Shown here piece after piece: positions 28,616-63,375 of a stretch of DNA of 64,000 nt. Source of the DNA: Quillaja saponaria (lineage: Eukaryota > Streptophyta > Magnoliopsida > Fabales > Quillajaceae); contig CM055607.1 in assembly GCA_029379385.1 (NCBI GenBank), positions 4,402,001 to 4,466,000 of the forward strand, read 5' to 3'. The notes under the pieces were generated by a model. It was given only the letters and a program-made list of their open reading frames with translations. It searched no databases and was not told the origin of the DNA. Each line of letters opens with the position of its first letter. The stretch's first letter is position 1. Both the position numbers and the translations under genes were made by a program.

Positions 28616-28708
28616 TTGGAGATTCTTCGAACCTCCATAGCTGATGCAGAGCTCAAAGCCTGAAACTGGAGATGGACATAACTGGTCCTTAAACTTCTTT
28701 TGTAAACT

Positions 28709-42062: not shown

Positions 42063-44091
42063 CAATGACAAGCACCAGAATGGTGTTTAAAATCATTTTC
42101 TCCTGTCATCAGCTTTAGTTTGTAGTTTATACGCACATATAAAACACTATCAAGTATAGGGAAAGAAAATGACTGCTGAAATATTGTTGATGGGAGCTAG
42201 ATTGCTTCATTTACTTCCCACTATAATGAGTATTGACGTGTTACACCAGCAAATTTGTAGTCCTGGATTCCTCTCCATCTTCTTCCTTCAACTTTTTATT
42301 TTTGTTCATAGATTTGTACAGCCTGCATTGAAGCTCTTTTAGGACCAACAATGTCTGGAAAAAGTACTCTGATGAATTTTATGAAACTAGTGGTATTCTG
42401 CTTCTCCTTGTGATGACATGAATGCCACTACAGGTTCAAAAAGTTAAGTTGGAAATATGAACTATATTAATATAGATACCTCGTGCACGGAGGACTAAAA
42501 TGATTAGACCAAATTAATTAGTGCTTGTTTATATGCAACACTACATATCAATGTTATGATTGAATTTAGCATGAGAAATTTTGTTAACAACTATATGCAT
42601 GTAAGCGACTACAACTAATAATTAGTATCTTCTTAACAAAACTCATATTTTAATATTCTGATATTGATCAACAAAATCATTAGATCACTTTGAAGATTTA
42701 ATAAATAACCATATCATTATATTTTCCAAGTAATTAATTGACACATGAATCATTTGTTTTAGGAAAAAGCACATTAATGTTCCAAACATTTCTTCAAGTT
42801 TTAAGTTGCTGCCTCCATTTTTAACTTCGTCTACTAATTAGTTCTTTAATTTTATGAGTAGGGTCTCATTTGCACTGAACAACTTGACGATTTTTTATGT
42901 TTTTTTTACTGAGCAACTTTACAAAAGTTGTTGAGACTACATAGATATATTTAATAAATTAAAAAAAAAATTAGACACAATTAGAAATAAAAGAATATTT
43001 AATTTAAAGGGCATTAATAATTGTTCAAATGTTCCTTTCTCAGCTTATAATAATAATAATAATAAATCATTATATATGTGTGAGTGGAAGTGTACCTCTC
43101 TCGATATATAATTCTAAATCTAATGACTTCTCGAACTAAAGATAAAGGAGATTAAAAATTTTTTGTCCAATTGTTTTGTTTTGTTAACTAATTAAGAACA
43201 AATTGTTTACTAAATCATGATGATTAATCAATTTGCTCCATTTATATATATATATATATATATAGAATGTTAATAATGCACATCAAAGTTGTGGTCCTAT
43301 ATACTCCCTCCTAATTATCAGTTATTTAAGTAGAAGTTATTATATTACTCAATTATACTAAAATTACAGATTAATATAAAATTTAGCATAAAAATATTAT
43401 ATTATTAGAGACGAATTTTGTCCCTTTTTGATAACTGGATTTCTTGTAACTATGCACTTGCCCTTGAATCTAACACCGTATCTCCTCCAACTCGATCCCA
43501 CGTACAGCCACCAATTTAGGGTAGGTTAATTTGGCCAAACTAGTTTACTCACCCCAGGCTGGTGAAAAATTTCTACACTCTCATCCGACTATGTACTGTT
43601 ACTTAGGATCAAATAAAATTAGATAAAACACTATAATTTTTAGTTTATTTATATAATAACAATACAAAAAATATTATCTAATCAAATTAGTTTCACATAC
43701 AAATGAAATGAAAAGTATAATTTAATCAAGCCTATTATCTGTTTTATTTTTATAAATATATAATTTAAGTATAATAAGAGTGCAGAGCAGGGAACCCTGC
43801 AAATTTGACTAAAATCCTTACCTGTCCTCTATCCAAGACTGATATAAAAATTTTATATCCTTACCAGGACCTTATTTACCTTGGGTGCATATTTTCTCTA
43901 CTCAACGGGATACGACAGGTAAGATACCTACGAAGCGGATTGAAAATGTTGTCCTACACCAATTGTATATCCAAATGTAAAAACAATAATCAAAGTAAAA
44001 AATACAAATGTGTGTGTGTGTGTGAACGGGGAATGGAAAATGTATTAGCAAAAACTATGAATAAGAATTGAGTAGAAATTAACATGCGCAG

Positions 44092-44137
<46 letters not shown>

Positions 44138-44263
44138 ATGAGTTTTACCCAAAGTATAGAAGAACTTACAGATAATAAAAGCAGTATCAGATTCGAACCA
44201 AGTAGCTGGCTTGCTAATGCCTTGAACAAGGTTGATTCAGAAATTAGATGGGTTTGAAGAAAC
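42063..44263. other. 3' flank of GLCAT14A and intergenic DNA with repeat fragments
   Basis: The first few hundred bases are probably GLCAT14A 3' UTR. From 42430 it is AT-rich, non-coding. A Stowaway-like word TACTCCCTCCTAATTA occurs at 43302, without a matching right end. The 43780-43960 stretch has balanced composition and repeat-like words (ACGGGATACGACAGG), probably transposon-derived. TA runs lie at 43246-43263 and 44094-44140. Confidence 0.4.
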
Positions 44264-44374
44264 TGGAGGGGCTTCAGCCGAGGGGAGATGACAGCTGCTG
44301 CTTTATATATAAACAAAATTGGCTCTAAATATGAAGTAGCAAAAGGTGTCATCTCTCCTACGACAGAAGCTCCT
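44264..44374 (-). ncRNA. miRNA precursor hairpin A, miR4376/miR3627 superfamily-like
   Basis: On the minus strand the 5' arm holds a 22-nt candidate mature miRNA at 44345-44366 with the core GTCGTAGGAGAGATGACAC. It pairs with the 3' arm at 44271-44296 over about 25 bp with roughly five mismatches or wobbles; outer helix GCTTC/GAAGC and inner helix TTGCTACTT/AAGCAGCAG extend the stem. The loop region is about 45 nt. Compared with hairpin B the mature sequence differs at 3 of 22 positions and with hairpin C at 5. Members of this superfamily in tomato and other eudicots (miR4376, miR3627, miR391) target autoinhibited Ca2+-ATPase mRNA; that is family knowledge, not shown here. Confidence 0.68.
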
Positions 44375-44440
44375 ATGAATCTCTCTCTCTCTCTCACTCT
44401 GCTATTGCAGCATCTATTACAAAACCTCGTTGCTAGCAAG

Positions 44441-44463
44441 TATATATATATATATATATAAAG
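44441..44463 (-). promoter_or_regulatory. TATA-like tract upstream of hairpin A
   Basis: A TTTATATATA run on the minus strand ends about 75 bp upstream of the candidate mature miRNA, similar to the spacing at hairpins B and C. Being a TA repeat, it is weaker evidence than a unique box. Confidence 0.4.
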
Positions 44464-45560
44464 ATTCTTGACTAGGTAACATGTTTTTTGATTTATTTTA
44501 TTTCATATGTCAACGGTTGGAAAACAGCTGTAAATTATTAACAATACTCCTAATCCGCATGACTTGTTTTAAAATCTTTTTCAGTCTTAATTATTTCATT
44601 CACCGATATCATTTAGATGACGTAGAAAATTTAACATACTTCAATCAATTAAGAATATCTTTCAAATGATATATAGATGATCACTATTAATTTCATTAAT
44701 TAATAATCATATATAAAAAATATTTTTGAGAAGAAAAAAAAAAGATTTATCTAATTAATTATATTATAGTCACTGAATATGTAACTCAAGTGATAACGGT
44801 AGAATTATCTATTTAATATTATTTTATTCCAAATTTGACTGATCTGAGTGTCTATATATATATCTGCTTCTTGGTTTATACCTTAATGGCATGTGAAAGC
44901 ATACTTTTGGACTGGTTTCTTAAAAAACAGAACAGATTTGTTATTGCTGGGGAAGGTATTATTTATTTATTTGGATAGGTTAAGGAATTTTTTGGAGAAT
45001 ATGTTTGCAACTGGGGGAGAACCAACACTTGCTTTGCTGGAGTCCAATTGTGGCGATGTGGCTGGCCTGTGGGTGTATTAAATTTGCCAACTTATTTTAT
45101 TAACTACATATATGGTACACATTTTTTAAAGACTCGCAATTACCCAAGTCTCTTCCTCTATTCTCTCTTTCAAATACGTTTAATTATTTGAATATATCAA
45201 CTGAATCATTTGATTATTATAACTAATGATTCTAACTAAAATCAATTTTTGGGATACAACAAGAATTTGTATTCTCAAATAATATCGTAAGACTTTGCCG
45301 TCATTGTGAAAATTTATTTTTCCAACGATTAATCTATGACTATTCTTCTGCATTTTCTTCCCACATAATATCTAATTAATACTTTAAAATAAAACATATA
45401 GTCATAAGAAAGGAGGTAGATTTATTATGAATTTTTCTAACTAGTATCCTAAGTGTACTTGATAAATAATAATAAATATGAATTTTAAAATTCAAAATAT
45501 TCTAAAAATAATAAATTATTTATTATATACACTAAATCATGACCAATTAAAGCACCTATA
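44464..45560. other. Intergenic, AT-rich
   Basis: No supportable gene. A short GC-richer island at 44900-45080 can be read as a 62-residue ORF (GEPTLALLESNCGDVAGLWV) without family resemblance; probably a repeat fragment. Confidence 0.4.
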
Positions 45561-45728
45561 AAAAAAAAAAATCCATTTATTATACCCTGATTATGTATAA
45601 CCAGGCCGGTCTCATATATTTATGAAATGAATAAAAAATATTTATGAAATGAATAAAATGCACGAGTGAGGGTTGAACCCACCACCCAAAAGTGCCTAGA
45701 CAACATCTCTATCAATGAGCCAAGCTAT
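45561..45728 (-). mobile_element. tRNA-derived SINE (minus strand)
   Basis: On the minus strand an A-box-like TGGCTCATTGATAGAG (45707-45722) is followed about 28 bp later by the B box GGTTCAACCC (45670-45679), the layout of a Pol III promoter. The body runs on for about 100 bp and ends in a T run (45561-45571). Two copies of a TTTATGAAATGAATAAAA word lie in the body. This fits a tRNA-related plant SINE with a poly-T tail. Target-site duplications were not identified. Confidence 0.6.
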
Positions 45729-48700
45729 TATTGTTTGCTGTAATTTACAAATTATATAGTAGTTATTATTATTCTAGAATTTAAATGAAAAAAAAAAAAT
45801 TAAAACATTATACTCCTTTGTTATTACTGGTTATACTAAGTTTAAAATTTAAAATCTAATTTATTCATCCAATTAGATGAGTATAAATAAAACTATTTAA
45901 AGATATTGTGAACTTTGATATTATTTTATCACATGATACTTTAAATGTAAATATAATATGTTAATTTACTATTTATTTTATAAAATAAAATATTTTATTG
46001 TATTAGTTGAGGTAACATTAGTTAGTAATAAATTGAATATATAAAAATACATCACTAATTAACTTATATAATATGATTTGTATTTTTAAAATTAAAAATT
46101 AATTAAAATTAATATCTAATTTAATTATGACATCACCGGTTGGATTAGTGGTTGACCTGCGATTCAACTAGGAACCCGAGACTCCAATGTTTTTTTAAGT
46201 CAACGATAAATTTGGTTTTAAAAACATTGCCCATAAATAATATGTAATTTAGATTTTTGAGAAGGATAAGCCCACAATATAACAAAAATATAGTTATGCA
46301 GCCTAATATATTATATAAAAGCTTATACTATATATAATTCTATACGACAAGCCGAAAGATATCTTCTGTAAAATACATGGTTTCTTGTTATGATCTTGAG
46401 GATGTTCAGTATTCTATTTTAATAGAACCTGTAATTTAAATTACAAATAATTATTAGAAAAGGATTAATATATATTTATAAAAATTCATAAATATGAAAA
46501 AATAAAAATAAAAATGTGCACCCAATTAATAGGGATTTGGAGAGAGATGGAGAGATTTGGGTAATTGTGAGTCTAGGAGAGAGAAAACTTAAAAAATCAA
46601 ACTATTGTATTAGTTTGACTTTCTTTTCATTTAATAGATGGTAAATTAATTTACTTAAATACTAAACAAGTTATGAAAAAAGAAATATTGGTACTTTAAT
46701 TTTTCTTAAAAAAAAAAAAAAAAACTAACTTCATAGCAGTAAACAATATGTATTATTCTAGAAAGCATTTAGATTCTTAATATAACTCTAGCTCTTTTCT
46801 TCAAATTGATGTGCTATTTTTGAAAACATTTAGAAAGAACAAAGTAAACGTGAAACCCAATTAAAAAAAAAAAAAACTTCCTGTGCTTGAAGAGAGTGAA
46901 AGTGAAAATTACGAGTGGAGATTAAAACAAATTAAATACACTACTTTGACTTTTCTTAATTTAATTAAAAAAAAATTGAATGAAGGGAAAATTAGTCTTT
47001 TTAAATATTTATTAGGTTGTGGATATAAATAAGATTTTGGCTGTAGATTTAACAAGTCTACAAAATAAATAATAAGATATGGATCATATCTTATTATAGG
47101 CTGAAAAAATTGTTTGCAGCGCTGAAAGAATTGCAAATGAATTAGAGGGAGTATCGAGTATCATAAATGAACGAACGAAACAAATCAATTAGTCATTTTC
47201 ATCCACAAAACCATCTTAATCATGTTTATGGTGACGAAACATACTTTTTTCTTTTGAAATTTCCTAGGTGTGACTTTCACCTGTTATGTTTCGAATTTCC
47301 CATTAGTTTCCTTTTGGGTTGCCAAGAAATTCTTCTGAAAAAAATACGTTATATCTAAATTAAAATTCTATTTAGATTTGATTCTAAATTCATGATTGTG
47401 TTTTCTTTATTATGCATTACAACAGTACCAACTCATGGCTACTGCAGATTAATCACTCAATTTCCTTTGTTAATTTTATGGAGAGACTAATCAACTCTAC
47501 TACTTAGACAATTTTTTTCGTTAAGTTAATTTGGAAAGGTAGAGAGAGTAAAATATTTATAAATTTTATAATTTTAACATAAATTAGTTTAGATATCATA
47601 CTAATATTATTAAAAAAAAAATATCCTAATTACCCATTCACATCTCCAATGTCCTGATTTTCTCAAATTAGTTTATCCATCGACATTGAATTTTTAGATT
47701 TAATTGGGCTCTCTTAGCTAGATTAATTTATCCAATGCAATTATTCTTTCTCCTCAAAATGAAGAACACTTCTTCAATTTTCTGATCTCTTTTATGGATT
47801 TAATCTTCTAATCCTCCTTCTCATTTTATTATGTCAAAACTTGTCTACTCATCATTTGAAAATTTCCTTGTTTTCTCCGGTGAAGGTTGCCCTAGAATCA
47901 GTTATGGGTATTTATTGGTGACTCTCTTTGGGTTTTTTGAATTGAATTTTCTTTCTAATTTCTTGTTTCCTTTCATTCTGTGACGATGTCATCATTTTCC
48001 CTCTAGACCTTCTAAAGTGTCCTTTAACAACTATGTTGGTATTACAGTCTTAAAAAGGTCTAGATCTTTTAATTCTAGGATGCCATTTGGAAGTTTGAAT
48101 CAAAGCAAGCAGAATATCATTTCTTTGTTTCAAAGGAGTTTGAGGAGGAACTTAGTGGAAAAAGGAAAATATGAAAACAGTAAGAGATTAGAAAATTAGA
48201 GAATGAGTGATCCCATTTTGAAGAGAGAGAAATATTAATTACATTGAAATTCAAAATTTGAGATTTATAATATATATATATATATTTTATTACATTATCA
48301 TATGACCTTTGGAACCCATAGTGGTGGAATATTTTGATATCTTCTTGTACTTGTCTATATATTTTACTTGAGACATGTGTGAGTGTAACTAAAAAATTAT
48401 ACAAGGAAGGAAAGATGTAACAAAAACTAGTAATATTACCTTCGTTTCCTTTCCTCACACTTTGACCATCCAAATATAGCCTGCACTATATGCAAAGGTC
48501 AGTTTATACATTGAGAACCAACTAATTCCTAAAAATATATATATAAAATAAAATTCAGCATATCAATATATGTTGGTTGGTTGCAATCTGTATAGTGCAA
48601 CTCAAAAAATCTTGAAAATATGATTTTCTTTAATACACTTATTTCAAATTAAGAAATCTTAGCTATTTGGGGAGAAATTAAAAGAACTTGATGTGTAATT

Positions 48701-48999
48701 CTCAACTTGCTTGAAGAACTCGAGACTTTGATTTCGGTATAAAAGGCAAACTGCAAGTATCATAATAGAACGGAAAGAATAAATACACATGATCAATTCA
48801 ACAATTAAGTTGTTAGAGAATTCCAATATGAGCAGAATAATTTTCTCTGTAACACATATATAATAAAGAAAAATGAACATATAATATATGCAAGTAATAT
48901 CATATTCTCTCAAAACTGAAACCAATTATACATGATTCACCGATGAAAATTTAAAAAATTTATACATATAATTTATAAGTGGAATTGAAGGTTGCTGAA
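45729..48999. other. Intergenic, AT-rich, repeat-bearing
   Basis: About 3.3 kb without a convincing gene. It contains a MITE relic (46260-46353), poly-A runs at 46709-46724 and 46862-46875, and a less AT-rich patch at 47640-48180 with a 60-residue ORF of no recognisable family. TA run at 48270-48285. Confidence 0.4.
46260..46353 (+). mobile_element. Relic of the 194-bp TTAA MITE
   Basis: This stretch matches the right half of the MITE at 60998-61191: shared words are AGGATAAG, GCCTAATA(T/C)ATTATATAA, TATACTATATATA and TATACGA...CAAGCC. The left half and part of the right terminal repeat are missing. It shows the family has at least two copies in this window. Confidence 0.6.
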
Positions 49000-49098
49000 G
49001 GGGAGTTCTGTCGAGAAGAGATGGTGCCTGTTGCTGCTGCAAATGGATGTAAATGCAAGCACAGCACAAGGAGCCATCTCTCCTTCGACAGAAGCCCA
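49000..49098 (-). ncRNA. miRNA precursor hairpin B, miR3627/miR4376 superfamily-like
   Basis: Minus-strand stem-loop. The candidate 22-nt mature miRNA on the 5' arm is at 49070-49091, core GTCGAAGGAGAGATGGCTC. The 3' arm (49005-49029) carries CACCATCTCTTCTCGACAGA and pairs with it along the full length with one bulge; TTCTGTCGA is perfectly matched at the base. The loop is about 40 nt with the inner helix near GCAGCAGCAACAG. A minus-strand ORF of 68 codons (ATG at 49132) runs straight through the hairpin. It sits about 4.6 kb from hairpin A and 3.3 kb from hairpin C, all in the same orientation. Confidence 0.68.
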
Positions 49099-49150
49099 CT
49101 TTAACCTTAATTTCTTCCTCCTTGCAATTCATCCTTCATGAAATCCACTA

Positions 49151-49158
49151 TATTTATA
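49151..49158 (-). promoter_or_regulatory. TATA box upstream of hairpin B
   Basis: The minus strand reads CCTATAAATATAG, a canonical plant TATA box, 60 bp upstream of the candidate mature sequence. Transcription would start near 49120-49125, just before the hairpin. Confidence 0.6.
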
Positions 49159-49383
49159 GGCAAGAAAGTGGAATGAAGGCTGGTCTCTAGGGCATATTTT
49201 CAAACATGGAGGAATCTTCCAAACCCAACAATGTTATTTGGGTCCCTTTGAATAATTGTTTTATATATTCTATGAATTACTAAGATTTTGTATAGAAATT
49301 GCATGGTGGGAATAGAGTGTGTGAAATCAAAGTTTGATTCCCATTATTACAGTCAAAATGTAAAAAAAGAAAAGAAAAAAAAA

Positions 49384-49410
49384 GGTGGGGGGCGGGGGGG
49401 GGGGGGAGGG
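49384..49410 (+). repeat. Poly-G tract
   Basis: Twenty-seven bases almost entirely G, with single T, C and A interruptions, preceded by a 25-bp A/G stretch. Very unusual in this AT-rich context and capable of forming a G-quadruplex. It may also be a sequencing-sensitive homopolymer. Confidence 0.8.
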
Positions 49411-50533
49411 ACTAATTTCAGATCAATTAATGGTTGTTAATTACGTAAATAAAAATTAATTAATGCAGGAACTTACACAAATTTTCTCTCTTACCTAAAT
49501 GGTATAGAACTAGAAGATGGTTGGTCAAATAAATTAGAGTCATGAAATGTAGGGTCCAATACAATTTCATGGAAAAATAATTAGGGTTTGATTCGCATGA
49601 AAGAAAACAATGTAAAACAACTTGGAGAGAACATAAAATCTCAGAAGACTCGTAATCAACTTGCCTTTGACCCTTTATGACAGCGCATAAGCTTCTTAGA
49701 AGTTTTTGTCTGCTTCAACATGTTATTTGTGTCTAACTAGCCAGTCTATTTCTGGAGTTGTTTTTTTTAATGTTCAATTTAATTATTTAGTATTCAAAAT
49801 TTCTCAATCAACAAGATCCATTCTCATTTTCAATTGTTATATATAAACGAAATAATTATGTTTTACATGAAGATAGTGACATATATAATTGTTATGATTT
49901 AGAAAAATTTTTTTGGTCATTTATTGATAAAATATGTAGGGTTATTTCATTTATAAATAATAGGGGATCATGAGAATACAATTTGATTAACAAACTTTGA
50001 ATCTTAGAAGAAGAATTTAATTGAATTTCTTGAAGGATTGAATTGAAAATTGAGACATTTCAAAGAACTAAAAGCTTGGAAGTTATTAAGCAATTGGAAA
50101 GAAAGGGGAATGATATATATTGTCTTATATTTGAGAATAAAGAAGATCATGAGAGGAATGATATCCGGAGAGAAAGTTTTGATATTAGCCAGGACCACAA
50201 ATATCAGTTGTTCCTTATGTGGGGGAGAAAATTCAGTTATTGCATTTTAGATTACCACTGTATCCTTAAAGTAATATATATTCTTGACAAGAATATATAT
50301 AATGGAAGTCCAAAGTAATTTTATTCATTATAAATTTCTTTCATTTTATGCTTTTTCACTCAATTCAATTTTTTCCATTTTTCAAAAAAAAGAAAGAAAA
50401 GAAAAGAAGTTATAAACCGCTTCATTTGATCATCATATTCTTTCCCTTAACTTGTTTCAAATTCTAAATCAAATCAGTATACAACAGATTCAACCTATTT
50501 CAATCAACAACCAATAATTCACATAAAAAGTAA

Positions 50534-50535
<2 letters not shown>

Positions 50536-50606
<71 letters not shown>
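50536..50606. repeat. (AT)n microsatellite, about 70 bp
   Basis: About 35 uninterrupted AT dinucleotides; the longest simple repeat in the window. Length is likely polymorphic and assembly-sensitive. Confidence 0.9.
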
Positions 50607-50607
<1 letters not shown>

Positions 50608-52303
50608 CATATTTATTAATGATGCGATTTGATTTGATATCTCATATGATGTTAATATTTAATTAACCCTAAAGGCTTGAATTTGGTAATACTGTAACTT
50701 TTAAAAGATTATTTATTGTCATTTTAAGTTGTGTAAAAACAGTTATCAAAGGTTACATGCAGTTTTTAAAAGCATTCATGTAGTACTTTTAAAAACACCA
50801 GTGACTCAAAAATAATTAACCAAACTATATTTACATGTTGTGACTCTTAAAAAGTCACAAAATCTTATTGAAAATATTACCAAACTCAGCCTAACTACAT
50901 TAAACTAACGTCTCATTAACTTCCTATTTAGATCTTTGGATCGGAGACTTTCAATTTCTTCTTATTAGAGGAACTTTTTGCTATGGAATATATATTAAAG
51001 AAACATAATTAATTACATAAATATTCTCCTTTTCCAAAAGTATCCTCCACTAATTTGTTGCTCAATATAAATTGGAATTAAACCTTTGTTATCTTCCTTC
51101 TAAGGGAAAAGTAATTGTAATGTTACTTTCACATTTATATTATGTATAAAAGAAGAGAGATTAAAATTCTCTAAAAAAAAGAAGAAGGATAATATATGTT
51201 CTAGATGACTAAACATAATGTGGAGTCTTGTACAAAGAAATTGGAATCAAGAGAGTAATAACTGAGTCATGATAGTTTACCCAAAAAAAAAGACAAGATA
51301 GTGAGTCAATTAGCAAATCTAGCTAGATTTTTTAAATCTTGCACCTACTATTCGAACTACTATGCATATTGCAACTTTGACTTGTTCGTTGCATATTCCT
51401 TTTAAGTGTTTAATTAACTATCAATTAATTAGCACATAAAGATATTGCTAATGTTTTTCTTTACCCTAATTAATGTGGTAGGCTGAAATTCAGATTCTAG
51501 CTTAATTATTGTTTATATAAATAGCTGAGAAAAGAACTTAATTATATTATAGAATAATATCCACTCAGATTAATACATTTTTTTCTAACATAGACGTAAG
51601 TATTCACATGACCTAAAGGAAAAATTACTATTGTCTACATTCTATCCAACTTGTGAAAAATTGTGATCCTACAATACTCAATTCTCATATTTATTTCAGA
51701 GATGTTGATAAATTAAAAGCTGAAAATACAAGTGTTTGCTTTATATATGTGCAAGTGCAAGAGAGAAAATTATTTTCTCGTGTCAGATTTGATCAAGGAG
51801 TTGTTGAGTTCAAGGAAGATTGTACGTAATTCCTGAATCCCACCTGAAATACAAAAGAAAGAGGAAATCAAACGATGAGATGAGAATTTCTTAAAATTTT
51901 AATAAGTGGGACAGTGACTAAAAAATTCCCCCTACTTGTGAGGTTTCGCCACGTAAACCTTACTGTGTTATCTCGTCTCTCTAAGTCAGAAAAATCAGGC
52001 GGAAAAGCGAAAAGGACACTACCTTCATGAACCAATTACATGACATAAAGCTACAAACATAAGATCAGAAAAGTCAATAATAATAATTTAGAAAAGAGTA
52101 AGAAAAGAGGAAGATGTGTAATATGAAATTTTTTGATTTGGATCCCCTCTCTCATATCACAAGAGCTATACTTGTGAGTGAAATAAGAAAACCTTTCTCC
52201 TACAAATTTATTTAATCTTACTTTAAACAAATCTTTTTGAGCATAAAAAAAAAATAAAAATTAATCATTCACTCTGATTAATAAATTAATAAAAGAGATC
52301 ATC

Positions 52304-52408
52304 GGAAATCATATCGCAGGGCGATGGCCCTAGCTATAATCACTATGTATATATAAATATGCACAAGACATAGCTAGCTAGTGCCATCGCTCCTGCGACA
52401 AGAGTCCC
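52304..52408 (-). ncRNA. MIR3627: miR3627 precursor hairpin (C)
   Basis: Minus-strand stem-loop with the candidate 22-nt mature miRNA on the 5' arm at 52380-52401; positions 2-20 read TGTCGCAGGAGCGATGGCA, which I recognise as miR3627. The 3' arm (52311-52334) carries GGGCCATCGCCCTGCGATAT and pairs with one bulge and few mismatches. The helix continues through TAGCTA on both arms and CTATGT/ACATAG near the loop. The family's known target in other eudicots is the calcium pump ACA10-type mRNA. Base of stem and mature length fit plant DCL1 products; expression is not shown here. Confidence 0.82.
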
Positions 52409-52480
52409 ACAGCCCCTAGATTCTTCATTTTTCTTTGATGATGAGTTGTGAGCACCTCCAACTCTTGCTTCCATGTTGTG

Positions 52481-52490
52481 TTTATATATA
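52481..52490 (-). promoter_or_regulatory. TATA box upstream of MIR3627
   Basis: TATATATAAA on the minus strand lies 80 bp upstream of the mature sequence, with a GC-balanced leader in between. Same arrangement as at hairpin B. Confidence 0.55.
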
Positions 52491-52589: not shown

Positions 52590-52960
52590 AATTACTTAGT
52601 AGGTAGTACGTAATTTCTTCACAAATAGAAAGGAAATTTACTAGAACTTGACATATATTTTTAGTTTACATAGAAAGTTAGGCACAATCCATTGAGTGTT
52701 TAACGTTACATAGAAAGTTCCATGTAACAATATATTAAAAGCAGCCTTGTGTGTTTCCTTAATTCCTTCCATTAATTACATAGACGGCCAGTCCACAGAG
52801 TCTTGGTCTTGGTCTTGGTCACGCCCTTCCTTTTCATCATTTTCATACGTAACCCAAAGAGGGAGACACTTTCGGCATCTTGATGCCTTGACACAGAGTA
52901 GCAGCCGAATGCCCAAAACCCATGCATCTTCCAAGAAAGTTAGAAATGGACTTTAGGGCT
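52590..52960. repeat. Duplicated segment 1, copy A (partner 59870-60180)
   Basis: Shares with 59870-60180, in the same order and orientation, ACGTAATTTCTTCA, GGAAATTTACTAG, ACATAGAAA(G/A)TTCCAT, CTTGTGTGTTTCCTTAATTC and CCATGCATCTTCCAAGAAAG. Copy A also has a CTTGGT hexamer run (52803-52818). No gene; the 69-residue ORF here is not conserved in the partner. Confidence 0.8.
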
Positions 52961-53699
52961 GTTCATGTGATATATTTCCTAGATATCCTATCATAGACAA
53001 TTATTTTTCAGATAAATACTTTGCCTATGTAACTAATACGTCATAAATTATTCAAAAAATAAAAATAATTTTCAATTCTTCGAATTGGTTTAAAAAATTT
53101 ATTCTCAACAAACATGAAATTTTTTCATAAATGCCCACTGTTTATACAAAACTGAAATATTTCAATAAAAACTTATATTTGTAATGCATAATTCACTGCA
53201 ATAAAGCATATAAACATAAATGAACTATATAAACAACCATACTAAATACAATTCTCATAATAAACACAACTATATGTGCATCACAAATTGTCCAACTATT
53301 ACATAACTTCATTGAAAACTTTAAAACATTGCATAAAATGAAGCAACCTACAATTTCCAAATAATACATGAATCAACAAATTTTTTATAACATATCTAAA
53401 ATTTATAAACTGCTTTGTCAGAAGCAAGACTCATTAATTTATTGCAAAATTTACAGCCCAAACCTGAATTCATCCCAAAATATACAAAATCACACAAAAT
53501 AGAAACACGAGTACCTAAACTGAAGCTACCTACTATTTTCTAACGTCTTCCTTACCTAATATCCTTTAAAACTTCAATAAACATAATTAGCTAGAGGACA
53601 CTTTCCTATTATAATAGGTCAGTAAGTGTGTTGCACACCAACTGTGTCACTTAATCTCCAACAAGGATTTCTAGTCATCTAGCACAGAGAGAAAAAAGA
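52961..53699. other. Intergenic, AT-rich
   Basis: No gene, no clear repeat ends. Lies between two segments that have partners near 60 and 62 kb, but has no visible partner itself. Confidence 0.4.
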
Positions 53700-55035
53700 A
53701 GAAAAATTTCTACAATTATTTTGTAACTTCGTTTTCATTCAAAAGAAGAAAAGTGTTGAATTATTTTTTAGTCTGAGTATTGTTTTAATAAATTTTAATG
53801 GAAGAAAGTGTAACTTACTATATATATATTTTTTTCAATTAAAATTTTGATAAGTTGTTTTGACGTAGCCTCTTAGAACGGTTGTCATCGGTTTAAGTCA
53901 AATAATTTTGGACCACCCACCACACCAAACCGATGCAGTTGGTTGTTATTTCAATTCAACCAAATGCATCCTAATTGGGTTGGTTATGTGAAAATTGAAG
54001 TCACCAAAAAAACTTAAATCTTGTATTCGGGTCGATTGGGTAAGAAACTAAAATTTAGACTGTTGTTTCAAGTGAGGAGGATCACTGCAAACAACGTACA
54101 TAAAAAAGTCAATATTATAGTCTTAACCGTCAGATGATATTTTGATAAAGTGCTCAAAATTACTCCTGATACTCAGATTTGAAAGGCACAATCGAAGGAA
54201 GGAAGGAACTGTCACAAAGATGCGATTTGCCTCATGAAGGTCCGATTGCCTCTCCACTACATCTTCAAAAGTCAGGGGGTCTCAGACTAAGTAAGACATG
54301 CAAAAAAAAATGAATTGCTTAAAGTAAGAGCATATTTATTTATTTATTTATTTTTATACACATGAGAGAAGAGAGATAGAGATCTAAAATCATTAATGAG
54401 GTTATGGCTACTAGGGGTGTCGATGAGCCTAGTCAGCTCATGAGCAACTCTTTCAAGATTTAATTCAAGCTTGACTCATTTTAACAATAAACTAATTTTA
54501 AGTTTTATGTTTAAATTTATTCTATAAACTAGTTGAGTTCAATCTATACAAAATTAGATTTATAAGCTTCTGAGTTCAATTTATGTAATATATATGTATA
54601 TATATATTTTTTATTTTTCCTAAATAATCTAATTTGATGGTAATCTACTTGGTTTCAACTTTGTATGTTTCATGAGCCCTTCACAAGTTGAGTAGGCGCG
54701 GGTAGCAAAAGATGTGAGGGAATTAGGGTACCAAAGTATAGTTTGTGTCTTAGAAAAGAGCATCGAAGCCCAAAGTTAAAAAGGCTTTCAATCCGAATAA
54801 ACTTTCTCTCACTAAGATCAGATGCCTGCTCTTTCATAATTTTCTTGCAGCCCACAATAAAAAAGAAAACCGAAAATATTCCAAATGTTGTGCTCTGCAG
54901 TAGTTTGTTTTCTTTCTCTCTCTTTCCCTCGGTTTTACCCAACGCTAATGGGTCAGATCCTTCAAGACTCTTTTAAGGTTTGGGAAACCAAGGTATCTCT
55001 GTCCCTTCTTTTACGTACTATAAACATCAAGTGCT
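53700..55035. repeat. Duplicated segment 2, copy A (partner 62125-63375)
   Basis: Long stretches match 62125-63375 at roughly 80-90% by eye: GACCACCCACCACACCAAAC, GATCACTGCAAACAACGTAC, GAGTAGGCGCGGGTAGCAAA, TCTTAGAAAAGAGCATCGAA and a CT-rich tract before CCTCGGTTT. In copy A an ATG at 54948 opens MGQILQDSFKVWETK followed by a GTATCT donor-like site, as if it were a first exon; copy B has a stop as codon 3 at the same place. Function unknown. Confidence 0.8.
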
Positions 55036-56267
55036 TTATTGTCAGGAAATTATTATTTATTATTTATTATTGAAATTTAAATATATTTATAATCACTTGT
55101 TAAAATCTGATTATATTCAATGACATAATTTGATATTTTTGATATTTTTAAAAACGTTATTCTAGTAATTGCAGCTTTATTTATTTTTTATATTTGTAAG
55201 ATTATCCTAGTGTTAATAAAAAAAAAAATGAAAAAAATGAAGAAATAAATATTTAGTGATATATAATTTTTATATCATTAAAAAAAATAAATTATTTTAA
55301 CTATTTTTCTTTTTAAATGTTGGTTTTTTTTTTTTTTTAAACCTGATCAATATCTTAAAAACACTTGATTTGAGTTGTCAAGATAGGTAGCTTATCTATG
55401 ATGATAAGCAATATCTCAAAAGTCACACTAAATTAAACCAAAATTATTGGTGGGCTAGCACACAATGAGACTACCATTGAAGCAAGACCATCAAGGTTGA
55501 ACCTTTATAAGAGGAGAGAAAGCTCAAACAATGGAGGGAGAGAGCTAAGAGGTTCACTTTCTAATGGCACAGTAGCTGTGGAAATACAGTGCATATGATT
55601 TTCCCCACTGTAAATTGATGATTACATTTGCCCGTTGATACTCAAAAACCTATTTTCCTTTGGCTTCTAGAAACTCCCGCTTAGTAAAAGGTTAACGGCC
55701 GAAGTAGACTCTCTTTTTATCATAAATATTTTGCAACTATAATTACTGTCTTTCTTCGTCAACCCCAGATTTTGTTTTGATTCTAAAAATTAATGCCTAT
55801 AGGTCTACTACATTAACCCATATTCTAAAAGGCCTTTCGACGACAAACAGCGTAGATGCTGAAATTGCAAAGCATTGTTAATATATGTCATTTTCAATTC
55901 TTACTTAAATTCATTACATATTATCACAAGCAGCTTAAACAACAACAAAACTTGGTTCTTGATTAACCAAAAGAAGACACAAAGCAGAGGGCCAATTGAT
56001 TATCATTCCACAATTTTCACAAAGCTCAGTTTCATCAAGAAGCTGGATTTCCCTTCAAATAAGCTTTTCCTCAAAGAAATTGTAAAGCATTTTAAGTTGC
56101 ATTTTTCATTCTTATCATACACAAGATTTTTACAAGTAACTTAAACTAAAAGAAGCATGATTCCTAATTAACCAAAAGACACAAAGCAGTGGGAGACTTC
56201 ATTATTGTTCCAGTAGTTTTACATAGCTGAATTTCCATCAGAAGGATTTCTCTTTAGATTTCTGTTT
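55036..56267. other. Intergenic with duplicated 3'-flank sequence of the AAA-ATPase
   Basis: AT-rich and non-coding to about 55860. Then 55910-56060, 56120-56260 and the true 3' flank (56680-56800) share ACAAG(C/A)A..TTAAAC, TTAACCAA(A)AGA, ACACAAAGCAG and CATAGCTGAA-like words, so the downstream flank of the ATPase exists in up to three tandem degenerate copies. Confidence 0.55.
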
Positions 56268-56385
56268 TCAGTGAGTGACACCATCATCTTTCACATCATC
56301 CTTCACACCATTCTCCTCGACAGCCATTCTCTTTGCCATCATCCTTCGCACCATTTTCTTTCACATTTCCTTGACCCAATAACAC
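56268..56385 (-). pseudogene. Decayed C-terminal tail of a second AAA-ATPase copy
   Basis: On the minus strand this encodes a repeat-like acidic/basic tail (NVKENGAKDDGKENG, then after a one-base frame change VEENGVKDDVKDDGVTH and a stop) that matches the end of the intact gene (VKENVVKDDVKENGVTH). No ATPase core accompanies it. It is a remnant of a tandem duplication, immediately downstream of the intact gene's 3' flank. Confidence 0.75.
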
Positions 56386-56680
56386 ATGATTAGCAATGAA
56401 ATTAAGTGTTATTTAATAAAAGAGAATAATTGATATTTGATGTGTATATGCATGTTACCCTTCTTTTAAAAGAAAAAAAAATTATTTTGTTAATACACAC
56501 TTAATGTGGAGGAAATTAACTTGGTATTGCAATAAGTTTTGTTGTTGACCACTTTAAAATGTCTAATTAATATGCATGCTTGGATCAAATGAGAAAATTT
56601 GCTTTTGAAACATGTATGTTACAAATAGTTGATTTTTATATCTACATACCAATATATACACTATTTACCTTCATACATAA
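56380..56680. repeat. Duplicated segment 3, copy A (empty-site partner of 60890-61340)
   Basis: Matches 60890-61340 over its length except that it lacks the 194-bp MITE. Shared words include GATTAGCAATG, TTCTTTTAAAAGAAAAAA, GGTATTGCAATAA, ATGCTTGGAT and AAATAGTTGATTTTTATAT. The single TTAA at 56501-56504 is the pre-insertion site. Confidence 0.85.
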
Positions 56681-56821: not shown

Positions 56822-58390
56822 TCAGTGGGTAACACCATTCTCTTTCACATCATCCTTCACAACATTTTCCTTGACACCATCCTCTTTCACATCTTTCACT
56901 GATGTTCCATTACTTTTCAAATCTTGTTGAGCAGATTTTTCCTTCTCTTTCTCTTTCTTCAATTGCGCTTCTTCCTCAGCCTTTTTCCCAGCTTCCTCCT
57001 TAGCAACTTCAAGAGCTTTAATCAAATTCTCAAAGCAGGCATCCACGTCCTCATTAACTGACTTAAGCAAAAAATTCTCAGCAACTTCAGCAGGTGTCAT
57101 ATTGGTTTCTTTCAACAATTCATCAATTCTATCAAATAAATGGTGAAAGTCAATATCCAAGTAATTCTTGGCTAGCACCTTGAATGCTTCAAAGCTACAA
57201 TAGGACAATTCTATATGCTTATCCATCCTTCCTCTCCTAATCAATGCAGGATCCAATTTGTCCACAAAATTAGTAGTAAAAACAATGATCCGCTCTCCAC
57301 CACAAGCTGACCAAAGCCCATCAATGAAATTTAATAACCCAGAAAGAGTCACCTTACTCCCTTTGTTTTCTTCCTCTTCGACCTTTTTACGAACAGGATC
57401 TTTAGCTTCCTCATCCTCAATATCTTTCTCTTTTTTCTTTGTCCTCTGACCGGTAAGATCAAGCGAGCAATCAATATCTTCAATCACAATAATTGATTTA
57501 CCTGATGTTTCGATTAAGAGTTTTCTCAGCTCAGCGTTATCCTTCACTGCTGTAAGCTCTAAATCATAGATATCATAGTTCAAAAAATTAGCCATGGCAG
57601 CTATCATGGTGGACTTACCGGTACCGGGAGGACCATATAAGAGGTAGCCCCGTTTCCAAGCCTTCCCAATTTTGGCATAGTACTCTTTCCCTTTGCTGAA
57701 CTTAACAAGATCATTTAAAATCTCTTCCTTCTTCTTTCCCTCCATTGCCAAAGTTTCAAATGTTGCAGGGTGCTCAAAAACGACATGGCTCCACTTTGCA
57801 CCTTTATATCCATACCAATTTTTGCTAGAATTGTTAGTGTAAAGCTTCACTTGCTGATTTTCCACGGCAATCGCCTTTCCTTGATCCAATACATGATTGA
57901 GATAAGACCCAGTAACGAGCTCTCTGTAACGTTTGTGAAAGGTGAGCTTGTAAAACCTCCTATCATCAGCAGCAGGGAAAATTGAAAAGGACTGTGCTTT
58001 AGGGGCGATTTTGTTTGAGGACCACCAAAGTTTAACCCCTTTGAACTCATCTGTGATCTCTTCATTCTCGTCCATGGAAAGCACTAATGGGGTCTGACTG
58101 TCTTTGACATAGTCAGCTTTAAGGCGTTTGGCTGTACCAGAAGAATTTTTACTGAGGTAGGTTTTGATGTTCATGAAAGCTTCACTGCGTTTCATATAAC
58201 GTTCACCTGTGTATTCATGGAAGGTAATTTGGATATAAGGGTATATGAAATTCATCCACTTTTGAGTGTAGAATTGGAGACGGCGTCGAACTTGGTAAGG
58301 GAAATATTTATCATACATGGCATATACAAACATTATGCTGGCTATCAAGGAACCTAATTGTGTCCACATCTGTCCCCCTACCATCACCAT
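56822..58390 (-). CDS. AATP1: AATP1/BCS1-like AAA-ATPase (ASD family)
   Basis: An intronless gene of 522 residues. Residues about 6-28 form an N-terminal membrane anchor. The AAA-ATPase-associated domain follows (YPYIQITFHEYTGE, KRSEAFMNIKTYLS, LSMDENEEITDEF, KLWWSS). The AAA core shows KIGKAWKRGYLLYGPPGTGKS with Walker A at 253-261, Walker B IIVIEDIDCS at about 300-309, sensor-1 FTTN at about 371-374 and arginine fingers RRGRMD at 385-390. The C-terminal tail is highly charged and repeat-like (VKEDGVKENVVKDDVKENG). The family includes mitochondrial/ER AAA-ATPases induced in stress and development (At5g40010 type). The ATG at 58390 is the first real Met of the frame; a second lies two codons on. 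Downstream tail fragments show the locus has duplicated in tandem. Confidence 0.94.
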   Translation of the reverse strand: MVMVGGQMWTQLGSLIASIMFVYAMYDKYFPYQVRRRLQFYTQKWMNFIYPYIQITFHEYTGERYMKRSEAFMNIKTYLSKNSSGTAKRLKADYVKDSQTPLVLSMDENEEITDEFKGVKLWWSSNKIAPKAQSFSIFPAADDRRFYKLTFHKRYRELVTGSYLNHVLDQGKAIAVENQQVKLYTNNSSKNWYGYKGAKWSHVVFEHPATFETLAMEGKKKEEILNDLVKFSKGKEYYAKIGKAWKRGYLLYGPPGTGKSTMIAAMANFLNYDIYDLELTAVKDNAELRKLLIETSGKSIIVIEDIDCSLDLTGQRTKKKEKDIEDEEAKDPVRKKVEEEENKGSKVTLSGLLNFIDGLWSACGGERIIVFTTNFVDKLDPALIRRGRMDKHIELSYCSFEAFKVLAKNYLDIDFHHLFDRIDELLKETNMTPAEVAENFLLKSVNEDVDACFENLIKALEVAKEEAGKKAEEEAQLKKEKEKEKSAQQDLKSNGTSVKDVKEDGVKENVVKDDVKENGVTH

Positions 58391-58499: not shown

Positions 58500-59869
58500 A
58501 ACTTACTCAATGTAGGAGCTGAGCTGCCAAGTAATGCCTATAAATTTCCTGGTTCTTTCACCCAAAAAAAATAAAATAATTTCCTTGTACTCTCCGAGTC
58601 ATGCCTGGGCCCGCTTATTTAGGATTATGTGGAGGACTTCAGATGGTGGCTAGTCTTCTTTTATTTTTATTTTTTTTGTTGCCCACCTGTTTTGACTATC
58701 AGCTATTTAAGTATGGATTTCTCAAAGTGTATAATTAATATAATTTTTAATTTTAAAATATTTTAAAAATAATAAATTATTTATTACATGATACTGAAAT
58801 CATGGACAATCACAATAATAAATGATATAAAATTTTATATTTATCATCTTAACAAGTATCCTAAAGATGCATATTAAAAATATCTTTTAAGTATTGGGAA
58901 GGAACTAACCTCTAGCAATGTAGCATAAACTAAAATAAATTAATTCCAAAAAAATAAATAAAGCGCCACTATATATGTCATACCCAATTGAAAAGAGGTT
59001 TGAAGAAATAGATGGGTTCTCAAAGCGAGAGAAAAAGACAACTAACCTCTAGCAATGTATCATAAAGCACTCTTCCTACGCCAAACAATTTGAGTTTAGA
59101 ATTTCATGAAAATATGAAATTCGTGAAAGCTTAAAATCACAGTCTACTAGGATGCTTCAACAGTTTTTCAACAGTTTACCATAAGACAAGAAATTGCAGA
59201 GAGAGATAAGAAGTTTCAAAAAAGAGAAATTTGCAAGTAGTATAGAAATAGAAAGACATAGAGTGCAAGGTGTTGTCAGAAGATTGAGTGTTTTTAACAA
59301 TTTATAATTTATTTTCAGTAAAAAGATTAATAAGTTATAATTTTATAGTATGAGATTATGAGAGATCTCGTGCTTTTTAAATAATACACATATACTAGTC
59401 CCATTAGCAAGTGTTCAACGTTTTTTTATTATTTTTAAGCAATAATAATAAAAATATTATAATTGTTGTATAAAATAGAGGAAATGAGATAAGTTTTAGA
59501 AGAAGTTGATTTTTTTTAAAAAATAAATAATTAATTGAAGTTAACAATTCATGAGTTTTTTGTTTTGTGTTAATTTTTTTTTTCTTAATTATAAGAGAAA
59601 ATGAGTAATTTTTAATAAATGATTGAATTTTAGTTTAAAAAGAGGTTAAAATATAGGAGGACAGTATCATCTCTTTTAGTATAATATTTTGAATTAAAAA
59701 ATATATTCAAAAGTTTGAGGATACCGCAATGTTTTGACTTTTATAGTAGTAAGTACAAAAATATATTTGTTTATATGTTACGAGCATGACATGTAAGTCA
59801 TATTTATTTTATAAAATTTCAAGTGCATAATTATGAATGATGTCATGAATGATGATGCATCTAAGTTTA
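58500..59869. other. Intergenic upstream of the AAA-ATPase
   Basis: Promoter-proximal DNA, then AT-rich non-coding sequence. A CTAACCTCTAGCAATGTA word occurs twice (58907 and 59042) about 135 bp apart. A GAATGATG..CATCTAAGTTTAC word at 59835-59870 recurs inside the next segment at 59959-59982. Confidence 0.45.
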
Positions 59870-60180
59870 CTTAATAGGTAATACGTAATTTCTTCAGAAA
59901 TAGTAAGGAAATTTACTAGTACTTTAGACATATTTTCTTATTAGGTCATCGTTGTCATGAATGATGATTCATCTAAGTTTACGTAGAAAGTTAGGTACGG
60001 TAATGGAGTGGTTGAAGCTACATAGAAAATTCCATAATAACATATATATATATATATATGAGTAAGTAATTAATTAAAGCCGCCTTGTGTGTTTCCTTAA
60101 TTCCTTCCATAAATTACAAGAGTCATGACACACCAGAAGCCGAAACCCATGCATCTTCCAAGAAAGTCAGTTTTTTTTTT
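59870..60180. repeat. Duplicated segment 1, copy B (partner 52590-52960)
   Basis: See copy A for the shared words. It contains an extra internal copy of a CATCTAAGTTTAC word and a TA run (60044-60060). Confidence 0.8.
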
Positions 60181-60889
60181 CTTCTCCAATCTCCACTAAT
60201 ATTTAATTTTTACGTTTTGATTTACTAGTATGTTATTTTGATTTACTAGTATGTTATTCTACATGTTATAAACTTTAAAAGCCTTAATATTACTCAATTT
60301 AATAAATTATTAAATCTAAAATTATGAAATTTGTTTAAACATACTTAATCCAATTAGGTCCACAAAAAATCTATTACTTTAGAGAACTTAGCCTATATTT
60401 TAATTTTTGTAAACCTAGAATTGCTTCCTTTTTAGCAAATCAATTAGCACCTTGATTTTGCAACAAAATGAAATTAAGAGTATTGATTTTAATATGGTGG
60501 ACAATTGAAGAAAATTGAAAATGAAATTTAGAGTTTTGATTCTAGTGTAGTGGGTAATTGATTGTATAATGCTTATAAGGTGAATTGTCGTAGCTGTGTT
60601 TAGGTGTATGAATTACTTCATTTAAGACTAATTAATGTGATAACAAATGATCCTGTTATTCGTTCAATTTTAAGAATTAATTTCATTATATCTTATAAAT
60701 ATGATATATAATAAATATATATAAAACCAGATACAAGTTTTTTTATATTGAAAGTAGATCCGGAACTATTGTCTCTTAGATTTTGTTTGAGAAGGGGATA
60801 GGGGAAATAATTAACCCGCATGCAGTCGGGGATTAAAACCTTAATTGGATAGCAAACTCACCAGATATATGTGGCCGTTGAGTTAACAT
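60181..60889. other. Intergenic, AT-rich
   Basis: No gene. A 25-bp tandem repeat (TTTTGATTTACTAGTATGTTA) occurs at 60214-60256. Nothing else recognisable. Confidence 0.4.
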
Positions 60890-61340
60890 GATTAGCAATG
60901 GAAAGTGTTATTTAATGTCAGAGAATAATTGACATTTGATGTGTATATGTTAGCCTTCTTTTAAAAGAAAAAATAAAATTTGTTAATACCCACTTAAGTC
61001 TCGTTTAACACATCGTATAAGGATAACATGATAGTATAAGATTATCCAGTTAGCTCTTATATAATATTTGACATCAACAGTAGAGAGAGAAAGGATAAGA
61101 CAATAGTATAACAACCGTAAAATTATATAGCCTAATACATTATATAATCATATACTATATATACAATTATATACGATGTGTCAAACAAGCCTTAATGTAG
61201 AGAAAATTAACATGGTATTGCAATAATTTTTGTTTTTGACTACTTTAAAAATATAATTAATATACATGCTTGGATGAAATGATAAAATTTGCTTTTGAAA
61301 CATATATATTCCAAATAGTTGATTTTTATATATACACTAT
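60890..61340. repeat. Duplicated segment 3, copy B, carrying a MITE
   Basis: Paralogous to 56380-56680; interrupted by the MITE at 60998-61191. Unlike copy A it is not next to an ATPase coding region, so it moved or was copied without the gene. Confidence 0.82.
60998..61191. mobile_element. 194-bp MITE with TTAA target-site duplication
   Basis: Terminal inverted repeats start GTCTCGTTTAACACATCG at the left and, reverse-complemented, GGCTTGTTTGACACATCG at the right (15 of 18 identical). It is flanked by TTAA at 60994-60997 and 61192-61195. The paralogous sequence at 56501-56504 has a single TTAA and no insert, which fixes both ends. TTAA duplication suggests piggyBac-like or related mobilisation; a TTA/TAA Harbinger-type reading fits the termini less well. 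No coding capacity. Confidence 0.92.
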
Positions 61341-62124
61341 GATTTATTTGTTATTTTTGTTATTATAAATAATTTAATTAGAGTCAAGTATACTAATATC
61401 ACATGAGATTTATTGGTCTAAAATTTTGGAATTTTGATAGTCGACACCCTTGGATGGATCATGCCAAACTAACAAAAAATAATTTTTGAAAAAATAGTAA
61501 AAAGTGATGTACCAAGAAGTTATGTCATAAATATTTTACAAGACAAAAAGTTTTATTTTTAACAGTTTTTTTAAATAAGACTTCAACTATTGATTGAAAC
61601 ATATTTTACACTTCACTCTTGTATTTAATTTTATATATATTAATTAAGTATACAATTTTTAAAAATATATGACATAAATTTGTGGTATGTATAATTATTA
61701 ATGAAAGAATAAACACATAAGATGTTCTCATCCCTCATTTCATGTTCCTCTCTAAAACAAAAGAAAATATATAATTTTTACGAGTAACTTTATATATATC
61801 ATTGGTCTATAATTTTTCTATTATAAGTAATTGAATTTATCTTATTAGAATTCATATTACCAAAGAATCTACACATATACTTCATAAGGGCTTATTAGAA
61901 ATTGAAGTGTTAATATCCTTGATTTGGCTATCAAGTGGGGACAAATTATTTGGACAGCTGTGAATAGAAAGGAGAAATATTATTTCTGTGCAGAGGAAGT
62001 ATAGGGGATTCATGAAAAGAGAAGACTAAAAATAAAATTTATTGATCTTCTAAAAATATGATAATTTTTTAAAAAACTTTTAAGATAAAATCATGATTTT
62101 TTTACTACTTTTAAAAAAAAAATA
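61341..62124. other. Intergenic, AT-rich
   Basis: No gene or clear repeat seen. Confidence 0.4.
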
Positions 62125-63375
62125 AATTTATTTTGCAACTTAGTTTTAATTCAAAGGAGAAAAGTGTGAATTATCTTTTGATGTCAAGTATCATTTCAAT
62201 AAATTTAAATGGAGAAAAGTGTAATTTATTCTAAATTTTTTTTTTCGATTAAAATTTTGATAAGTTATTTTTTCAATCTCTTAGAAGGGTTGTCCTCAGT
62301 TTGAGTCAAATAGTTTTAGACTACCCACCACACCAAACTGATGCAGTTGGTTGTCGTTTCAATTCAACCAACTGCATCCCAATTGAGTTCGTTATATGAA
62401 AATTGAAGTCACCAACAAAACTTTAATATTGTACTTGGGTCGATTGGGTAAGAAACTAAAATTTAGACTGTTGTTTCAAGTGAGGAGGATCATTGCAAAC
62501 AACGTACATAAAGTCAATATTGTAGCCTCAACTCTCAATGATATTTTGATAAAGTCTTCAAAATTACTCATGATATTCGATTTAAAAGGCATAAATGAAC
62601 GAATGAAGGAAGTGTCACAAAGATGCAAAAAAATGAACTGCTTGAAATAAAAACATATTTATTTACTTGTTTTTTAGGACATGAGAGAAGAGAGATAGAG
62701 ATCTAAAATAATTGATGAGATTATGACTATTAGGGATGTCCATGAGCTTAGTCAGCTTAACACATTCAAAATTCAATTCAAGCTCGACTAGTTTTAAAAA
62801 TAAACAAATTTTAAGTTTTATTTTAAACTCATTCTATAAACTAATTGAGCTCAATTTTTATAAAATTAGATTTATAATCTAGTGAGTCTAATTTATTTGA
62901 TATTCTTTTTTTTTTTTTTTGGTAAATAATCTAATTTGATGGTAATCTACTTGGTTTCAACTTTGCATGTTTCATGAGCCCTACACAAGTCGAGTAGGCG
63001 CGGGTGGCAAAAGATGTGAGGGAATTAGGGTACCCACATCTGGATTGTGTCTTAGAAAAGAGCGTCGAAGCCCAAAGTTAAAAAGGCTTTTCAATCCAAA
63101 TAAATCTCTCACTATTGGGTCTGCTCGTCCAAATCTATCTAAGACCAGATGCCTGTTCTTTCGTAATTGTCTTGCAGCCTACAAAGAAAAAGAAAACAGG
63201 AAATTTTCCAATTGTCTTACTCCAATAGTTTGTTTTTTCTCTCTCTCTCTCTCTCTCCCCTCGGTTTACTCAACGCTAATGGCTTAGATCCTTCAAAACT
63301 CTCTCTCCGTGACTCTGTCCCTTCTTTATGTACGTATAAACGTCCAGTGCGTTATTGCTCTTTTTTATAGTTTCC
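62125..63375. repeat. Duplicated segment 2, copy B (partner 53700-55035)
   Basis: Same order of shared blocks as copy A, with small indels. The ATG corresponding to 54948 is at 63280 and is followed by TAG two codons later, so the putative first exon is not open here. Confidence 0.8.

Follow-up and report, generated by a model that had tools for sequence, protein, structure and literature searches.

The closest described relatives of the locus analyzed here are the plant miRNA families miR5225, miR3627 and miR4376, whose superfamily is described as descending from miR390 (PMC5902766, citing Xia et al. 2013). In grape, a single stretch of the 5'UTR of Ca2+-ATPase10, itself a phasiRNA locus, has been reported as the site at which all three act (PMC6404619), and a second grape paper repeats this result, citing the first (PMC11586177). 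For tomato, miR4376 has been reported to cleave ACA10 and to initiate the production of phased siRNAs (PMC4211545). ACA8 is listed as a target of both miR3627 and miR5225 in Malus hupehensis, with an AT-hook gene as a further target of miR3627 (PMC4523022), and the target listed for willow miR3627a is an autoinhibited calcium ATPase (PMC8325687). Other reports list other targets. Degradome data from apple identified a single target of miR3627, which is an amino acid transporter (PMC3446319), and a 2017 study of apple listed an RNA-directed RNA polymerase for miR5225 (PMC5447065). Reported targets of miR5225 also include a histidine kinase in peanut, for which three miR4376 targets are listed with no Ca2+-ATPase among them (PMC5335773), a tyrosine kinase and a VQ gene in soybean (PMC6888636), and a nucleic acid binding protein in Prunus mume, where miR3627 and miR5225 were placed in one expression group (PMC9355595).

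The window analyzed here is a 64-kb stretch of the Quillaja saponaria genome (64,000 nucleotides, numbered from its first base). One intergenic part of it contains three related hairpins of the miRNA type, referred to below as A, B and C; they are real and of a known kind. All three are on one strand within 8.2 kb, with gaps of about 4.6 and 3.2 kb between them. When the window was searched for the pattern TGTCGnAGGAGnGATGnC with up to 3 mismatches allowed, it contained three occurrences and no more, each of them on the minus strand and with 0 mismatches. Shuffled windows yielded 0.40 matches on average, and three matches were reached in 0 of 100. When the 22-mers were taken in the frame of the original prediction, 16 of 22 positions were identical across all three (pairwise, 19/22 for A/B, 17/22 for A/C and 17/22 for B/C), close to the 16 to 17 of 22 that had been claimed.

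On folding, the three related minus-strand hairpins that had been predicted were all recovered (z-scores from -5.64 to -8.14). Folding of the minus-strand intervals, the check proposed at the outset, produced a stable single stem-loop in each case, with the 22-mer as its 5' arm. The folding energies were -47.4 kcal/mol for A (44.3 kb; 128 nt; z -5.64), -50.0 kcal/mol for B (49.0 kb; z -6.58) and -56.3 kcal/mol for C (52.3 kb; z -8.14), and for none of the three was a shuffle as stable as the hairpin (0/200 each). Each 22-mer had been described as pairing with its own 3' arm, and we found 18/22 mature bases paired in A and 19/22 in both B and C, that is, the few-mismatch stem-loop used as a criterion for plant MIRNA genes. 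In a scan of 12,778 overlapping 110-nt pieces from both strands of the window, the three loci accounted for the top five peaks and for 6 of the top 7. Of the minus-strand hairpins, C ranked first, B third and A, which is cut short by the 110-nt piece, seventh; the sixth rank was taken by an unrelated piece at 26921-27030.

We then aligned A, B and C and derived a consensus structure of 31 pairs from a covariance model built on them. Eighty-four of the 93 cells (90.3%) were paired. Changes on both sides were found at 8 of the 31 stem pairs, which 2 of 500 shuffles reached. None of the 500 shuffles attained the covariation score of the stem, and 36 of them attained its number of further pair types. 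When the partner was shifted by 1 to 3 columns, pairing fell to 42-54%. In the mature arm, for example, one pair is A-U in A and B and C-G in C. These results support the view that the stems keep their pairing through both-sided changes; they are not proof of it, since only three sequences were compared and the structure was derived from them.

By sequence, hairpin A (44261..44377, minus strand) is a MIR5225 precursor. It scored 79.7 bits against the Rfam model of this family (RF03517; gathering cut-off, 72) and was the only hairpin to pass any Rfam cut-off; its score against MIR3627 was 36.1 bits (minus strand). The predicted mature 5p strand of A, 22 nt at 44346..44367 (minus strand), is in that frame identical to peanut miR5225 at 20/22 positions (PMC5335773). 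Hairpin B (48993..49101, minus strand) is MIR5225-like only, an unlisted sister that is nearest to MIR5225: it scored 47.8 bits against MIR5225, below the cut-off of 72 (E 1.1e-07 in 18 kb), and 27.6 bits against MIR3627 (minus strand). Its predicted 22-nt mature 5p strand at 49071..49092 (minus strand) is identical at 19/22 positions to that of A and, likewise, to peanut miR5225 (PMC5335773). Hairpin C (52302..52410, minus strand) is of the MIR3627 type and is named on its mature arm rather than on its precursor. The precursor scored 33.3 bits against MIR3627 (RF03600), below the cut-off of 64 (E 0.00037), and 26.4 bits against MIR5225 (minus strand), whereas the predicted 22-nt mature 5p strand at 52380..52401 (minus strand) is identical at 22/22 positions to cotton-miR3627-5p, which was reported together with its 3p strand (PMC7943613, Table 2). 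Classified in this way, the cluster combines two known families with one unlisted member in a compact array.

These assignments bear on several parts of the original prediction. The third hairpin had been called a miR3627, as its mature strand confirms, and the placement of the group in a miR4376 superfamily derived from miR390 agrees with the literature (PMC5902766). The other two had been described as diverged sisters; this description suits B, which is unlisted, but not A, which is a recognizable MIR5225 (79.7 versus 72 bits). The predicted position of the C 22-mer, 52380-52401, was retained, but those of A and B sit better one base upstream, at the 5' end of peanut miR5225 (PMC5335773).

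The position of B and C under the Rfam cut-offs would be in keeping with a locus in which only one or two of the hairpins are functional and the remainder (B being the likeliest case) persist as remnants that have kept their fold. We regard this as unlikely. The minus strand of B is the third fold peak of the window, its lower stem is almost unbroken and a TATA-like box lies 66 nt upstream of it, while the mature strand of C is the same as that of cotton (PMC7943613).

Separate transcripts are likelier than a single one because about 4.6 and 3.2 kb lie between the hairpins. The upstream regions are consistent with separate transcription of each hairpin, with TATA-like boxes at B and C and none that is clear at A. 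The candidate promoter of B is the TATA-like TATAAATA at 49151..49158 (minus strand), 66 nt upstream of the predicted 5p start; a second TATA-like word, TATATAAA, is found 175 nt upstream of the same start. The candidate promoter of C is TATATAAA at 52481..52488 (minus strand), 87 nt upstream of the predicted 5p start. Both candidates are weak. The motifs were chosen after the sequence had been inspected, and the minus strand of the 64 kb contains 12 occurrences of TATAAATA and 15 of TATATAAA. Within 200 nt upstream of A we found neither of the two words, only a TA repeat. The looser motif TATAWAWA occurs upstream of A, B and C, and 160 times on the minus strand of the window.

When the 2-nt overhang rule was applied to the folds, a 22-nt miRNA and a 21-nt star were predicted in all three hairpins. 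The predicted stars are located at 44272..44292 in A, 49005..49025 in B and 52309..52329 in C, all on the minus strand. In each fold, the miRNA strand is longer by one base. MicroRNAs of 22 nt that derive from asymmetric duplexes act as triggers of secondary phased siRNAs, and the folds suggest that A, B and C would be processed to 22/21-nt duplexes of this phasiRNA-trigger form.

The strand of the hairpins was set by the family match and not by folding, because the plus strands fold about equally well (in the 110-nt scan, those of A and B better than the minus strands) and likewise give scores with the miRNA models (44264-44380, 48997-49105 and 52300-52415). As a result, antisense transcripts of the hairpins could be processed too, as has been described for MIR3627 of grape, a locus reported to be unstranded and phased (PMC6404619). 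This report, together with the scores of both strands of each hairpin, would also fit inverted-repeat (MITE-like) transposon pieces that make 24-nt siRNAs and resemble miRNAs only secondarily. We consider such an origin highly improbable, as the arms correspond to two miRNA families that are already catalogued, and no further copy within 64 kb was recovered by a covariance model built on the three hairpins. The model recovered the three loci on both strands. One additional hit, at 42518-42617 (E 0.013 for the window), was considered as a possible fourth hairpin and dismissed, since its arms show no likeness to those of the three and its folding is unremarkable (z -1.75 on the plus strand and 0.51 on the minus strand). 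The remaining 17 hits had E values of 1.1 or worse.

The hairpins had been described as lying in otherwise empty DNA, which holds for the 10 of 18 ORFs that were searched with Pfam. The 18 are stop-to-stop ORFs of at least 70 aa that overlap the region from 42.1 to 56.7 kb. None of the 10 had a match above a curated cut-off, and one of them had a weak match with an E value of 0.023 (14.3 bits versus a cut-off of 27). A 136-aa stop-to-stop frame overlapping hairpin A was considered as coding sequence and rejected; it had no Pfam match.

Two genes with a single open frame each were found elsewhere in the window. An AAA-ATPase (ASD/At3g28540-like) occupies 56822-58390 on the minus strand; two Quillaja saponaria AAA-ATPases among the best 120 of 7100 matches are 82-84% identical to it, and the window contains no second copy. 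It is flanked by duplicated pieces (52592-56646 and 59867-63357) that share 66-94% identity in a partly different order. The left-most piece starts about 180 bases upstream of C, and there is no hairpin copy beside its partner. The other gene encodes a PPR protein (28706-30754), for which the nearest among the matches listed are At5g39980-type chloroplast proteins. The related miR7122 has been reported to target PPR genes (PMC5902766); in this gene, no site for the three 22-mers scored 8 or better.

The original prediction had further proposed that the cluster was a case of local miRNA birth, possibly with new targets. In its strongest form, this would mean a young burst of recent tandem copies in the Quillaja lineage that are drifting to new targets. 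Such a burst would account for three hairpins inside 8.2 kb of one strand and for the small difference between A and B (3/22 positions). It would also suit the result of text searches with the 22-mers of A and B (minus their first two bases, and as 16-base cores), which gave no main-text match; these searches were narrow, and absence from them says little. The flanks, however, argue against recent copying: within 1.5 kb we found no in-register match except for 33 nt of the 5' arm shared by A and B. Five A/C matches and one B/C match were evaluated as duplicated flanks and rejected, being weak and out of register. The families of A and C have, moreover, been reported side by side in both grape and apple, so the split between A and C is probably older than Quillaja. 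Pairing kept by both-sided changes would likewise require time and constraint. Thus, a recent burst appears quite unlikely, and the proposal of local birth with new targets was not borne out.

The window contains no Ca2+-ATPase target, and a gap-free target scan of it identified no sites scoring 6.5 or less (range, 0 to 6.5) other than the hairpins' own complements. Two weak further sites were found for A (7.5 and 8.0) and none for B or C up to a score of 8. By analogy with grape and Malus, the likely shared target is ACA10/ACA8 mRNA, and the three hairpins would probably help to tune the calcium pump. The original prediction had named Ca2+-ATPases as targets of the superfamily, which is what has been reported for grape miR5225, miR3627 and miR4376 (PMC6404619). 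This step is a best guess and not a result, because the apple, peanut, soybean and Prunus mume reports list other targets.

Taken as a whole, the reading that we hold with reasonable confidence is that of an old tandem array of three miRNA hairpins whose 22-nt products would lead to Ca2+-ATPase cleavage and phasiRNAs. Hairpins A, B and C would each be transcribed separately and would yield a 22-nt miRNA and a 21-nt star. The miRNAs would guide cleavage of autoinhibited Ca2+-ATPase (ACA10/ACA8-type) mRNA, and the cleaved mRNA would give rise to phased siRNAs. The array would have originated by an old tandem duplication, with B as a further copy on the MIR5225 side.

Much more tentatively, miR5225 and miR3627 may both derive from a single ancestral tandem locus whose copies have since split up, with the array still intact in soapbark, and B, with its changes at positions 8, 19 and 21, may have targets of its own. 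We offer this as a possibility and a doubtful one. In the literature searched, we found no description of miR5225 and miR3627 as one genomic cluster, a weak negative in view of its open-access bias. The interest of the array lies mainly in the occurrence of miR5225 and miR3627 side by side, which makes it a useful test case for the relation between the two families. If they are linked sisters, two catalogue families would become one locus with a traceable history. The array would then also offer a natural setting in which to ask whether 22-nt triggers, once duplicated, stay redundant at a single site of the calcium pump or share out the task between them. In addition, it would add MIRNA genes from Quillaja, a member of Quillajaceae, a non-legume family in the legume order Fabales; the part of the literature naming both Quillaja saponaria and miRNA that we covered contained no title on the miRNAs of Quillaja itself.

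Compared with the known families, the array is closest to MIR5225 (RF03517; peanut, soybean, apple and grape) on one side and to MIR3627 (RF03600; cotton, grape, apple and willow) on the other. A passes the MIR5225 cut-off, and both A and B share the 5' end of the peanut miRNA; they differ from it near the 3' end and at position 8, which is T in A, A in B and C in peanut (PMC5335773). The 22-mer of C is the same as the cotton miR3627 5p strand, whereas the 3' arm of C is unlike cotton miR3627-3p (PMC7943613), and the match of C to the MIR3627 model spreads 109 bases over 89 model positions (33.3 bits versus a cut-off of 64). With miR4376 (tomato, peanut and grape), A, B and C have the superfamily core in common. 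Aligned to peanut miR4376 in a register shifted by 2-3 bases, they are identical to it at 14/19 (A), 15/19 (B) and 16/20 (C) overlapping positions (PMC5335773). Each of the three is closer to miR5225 or miR3627 than to miR4376.
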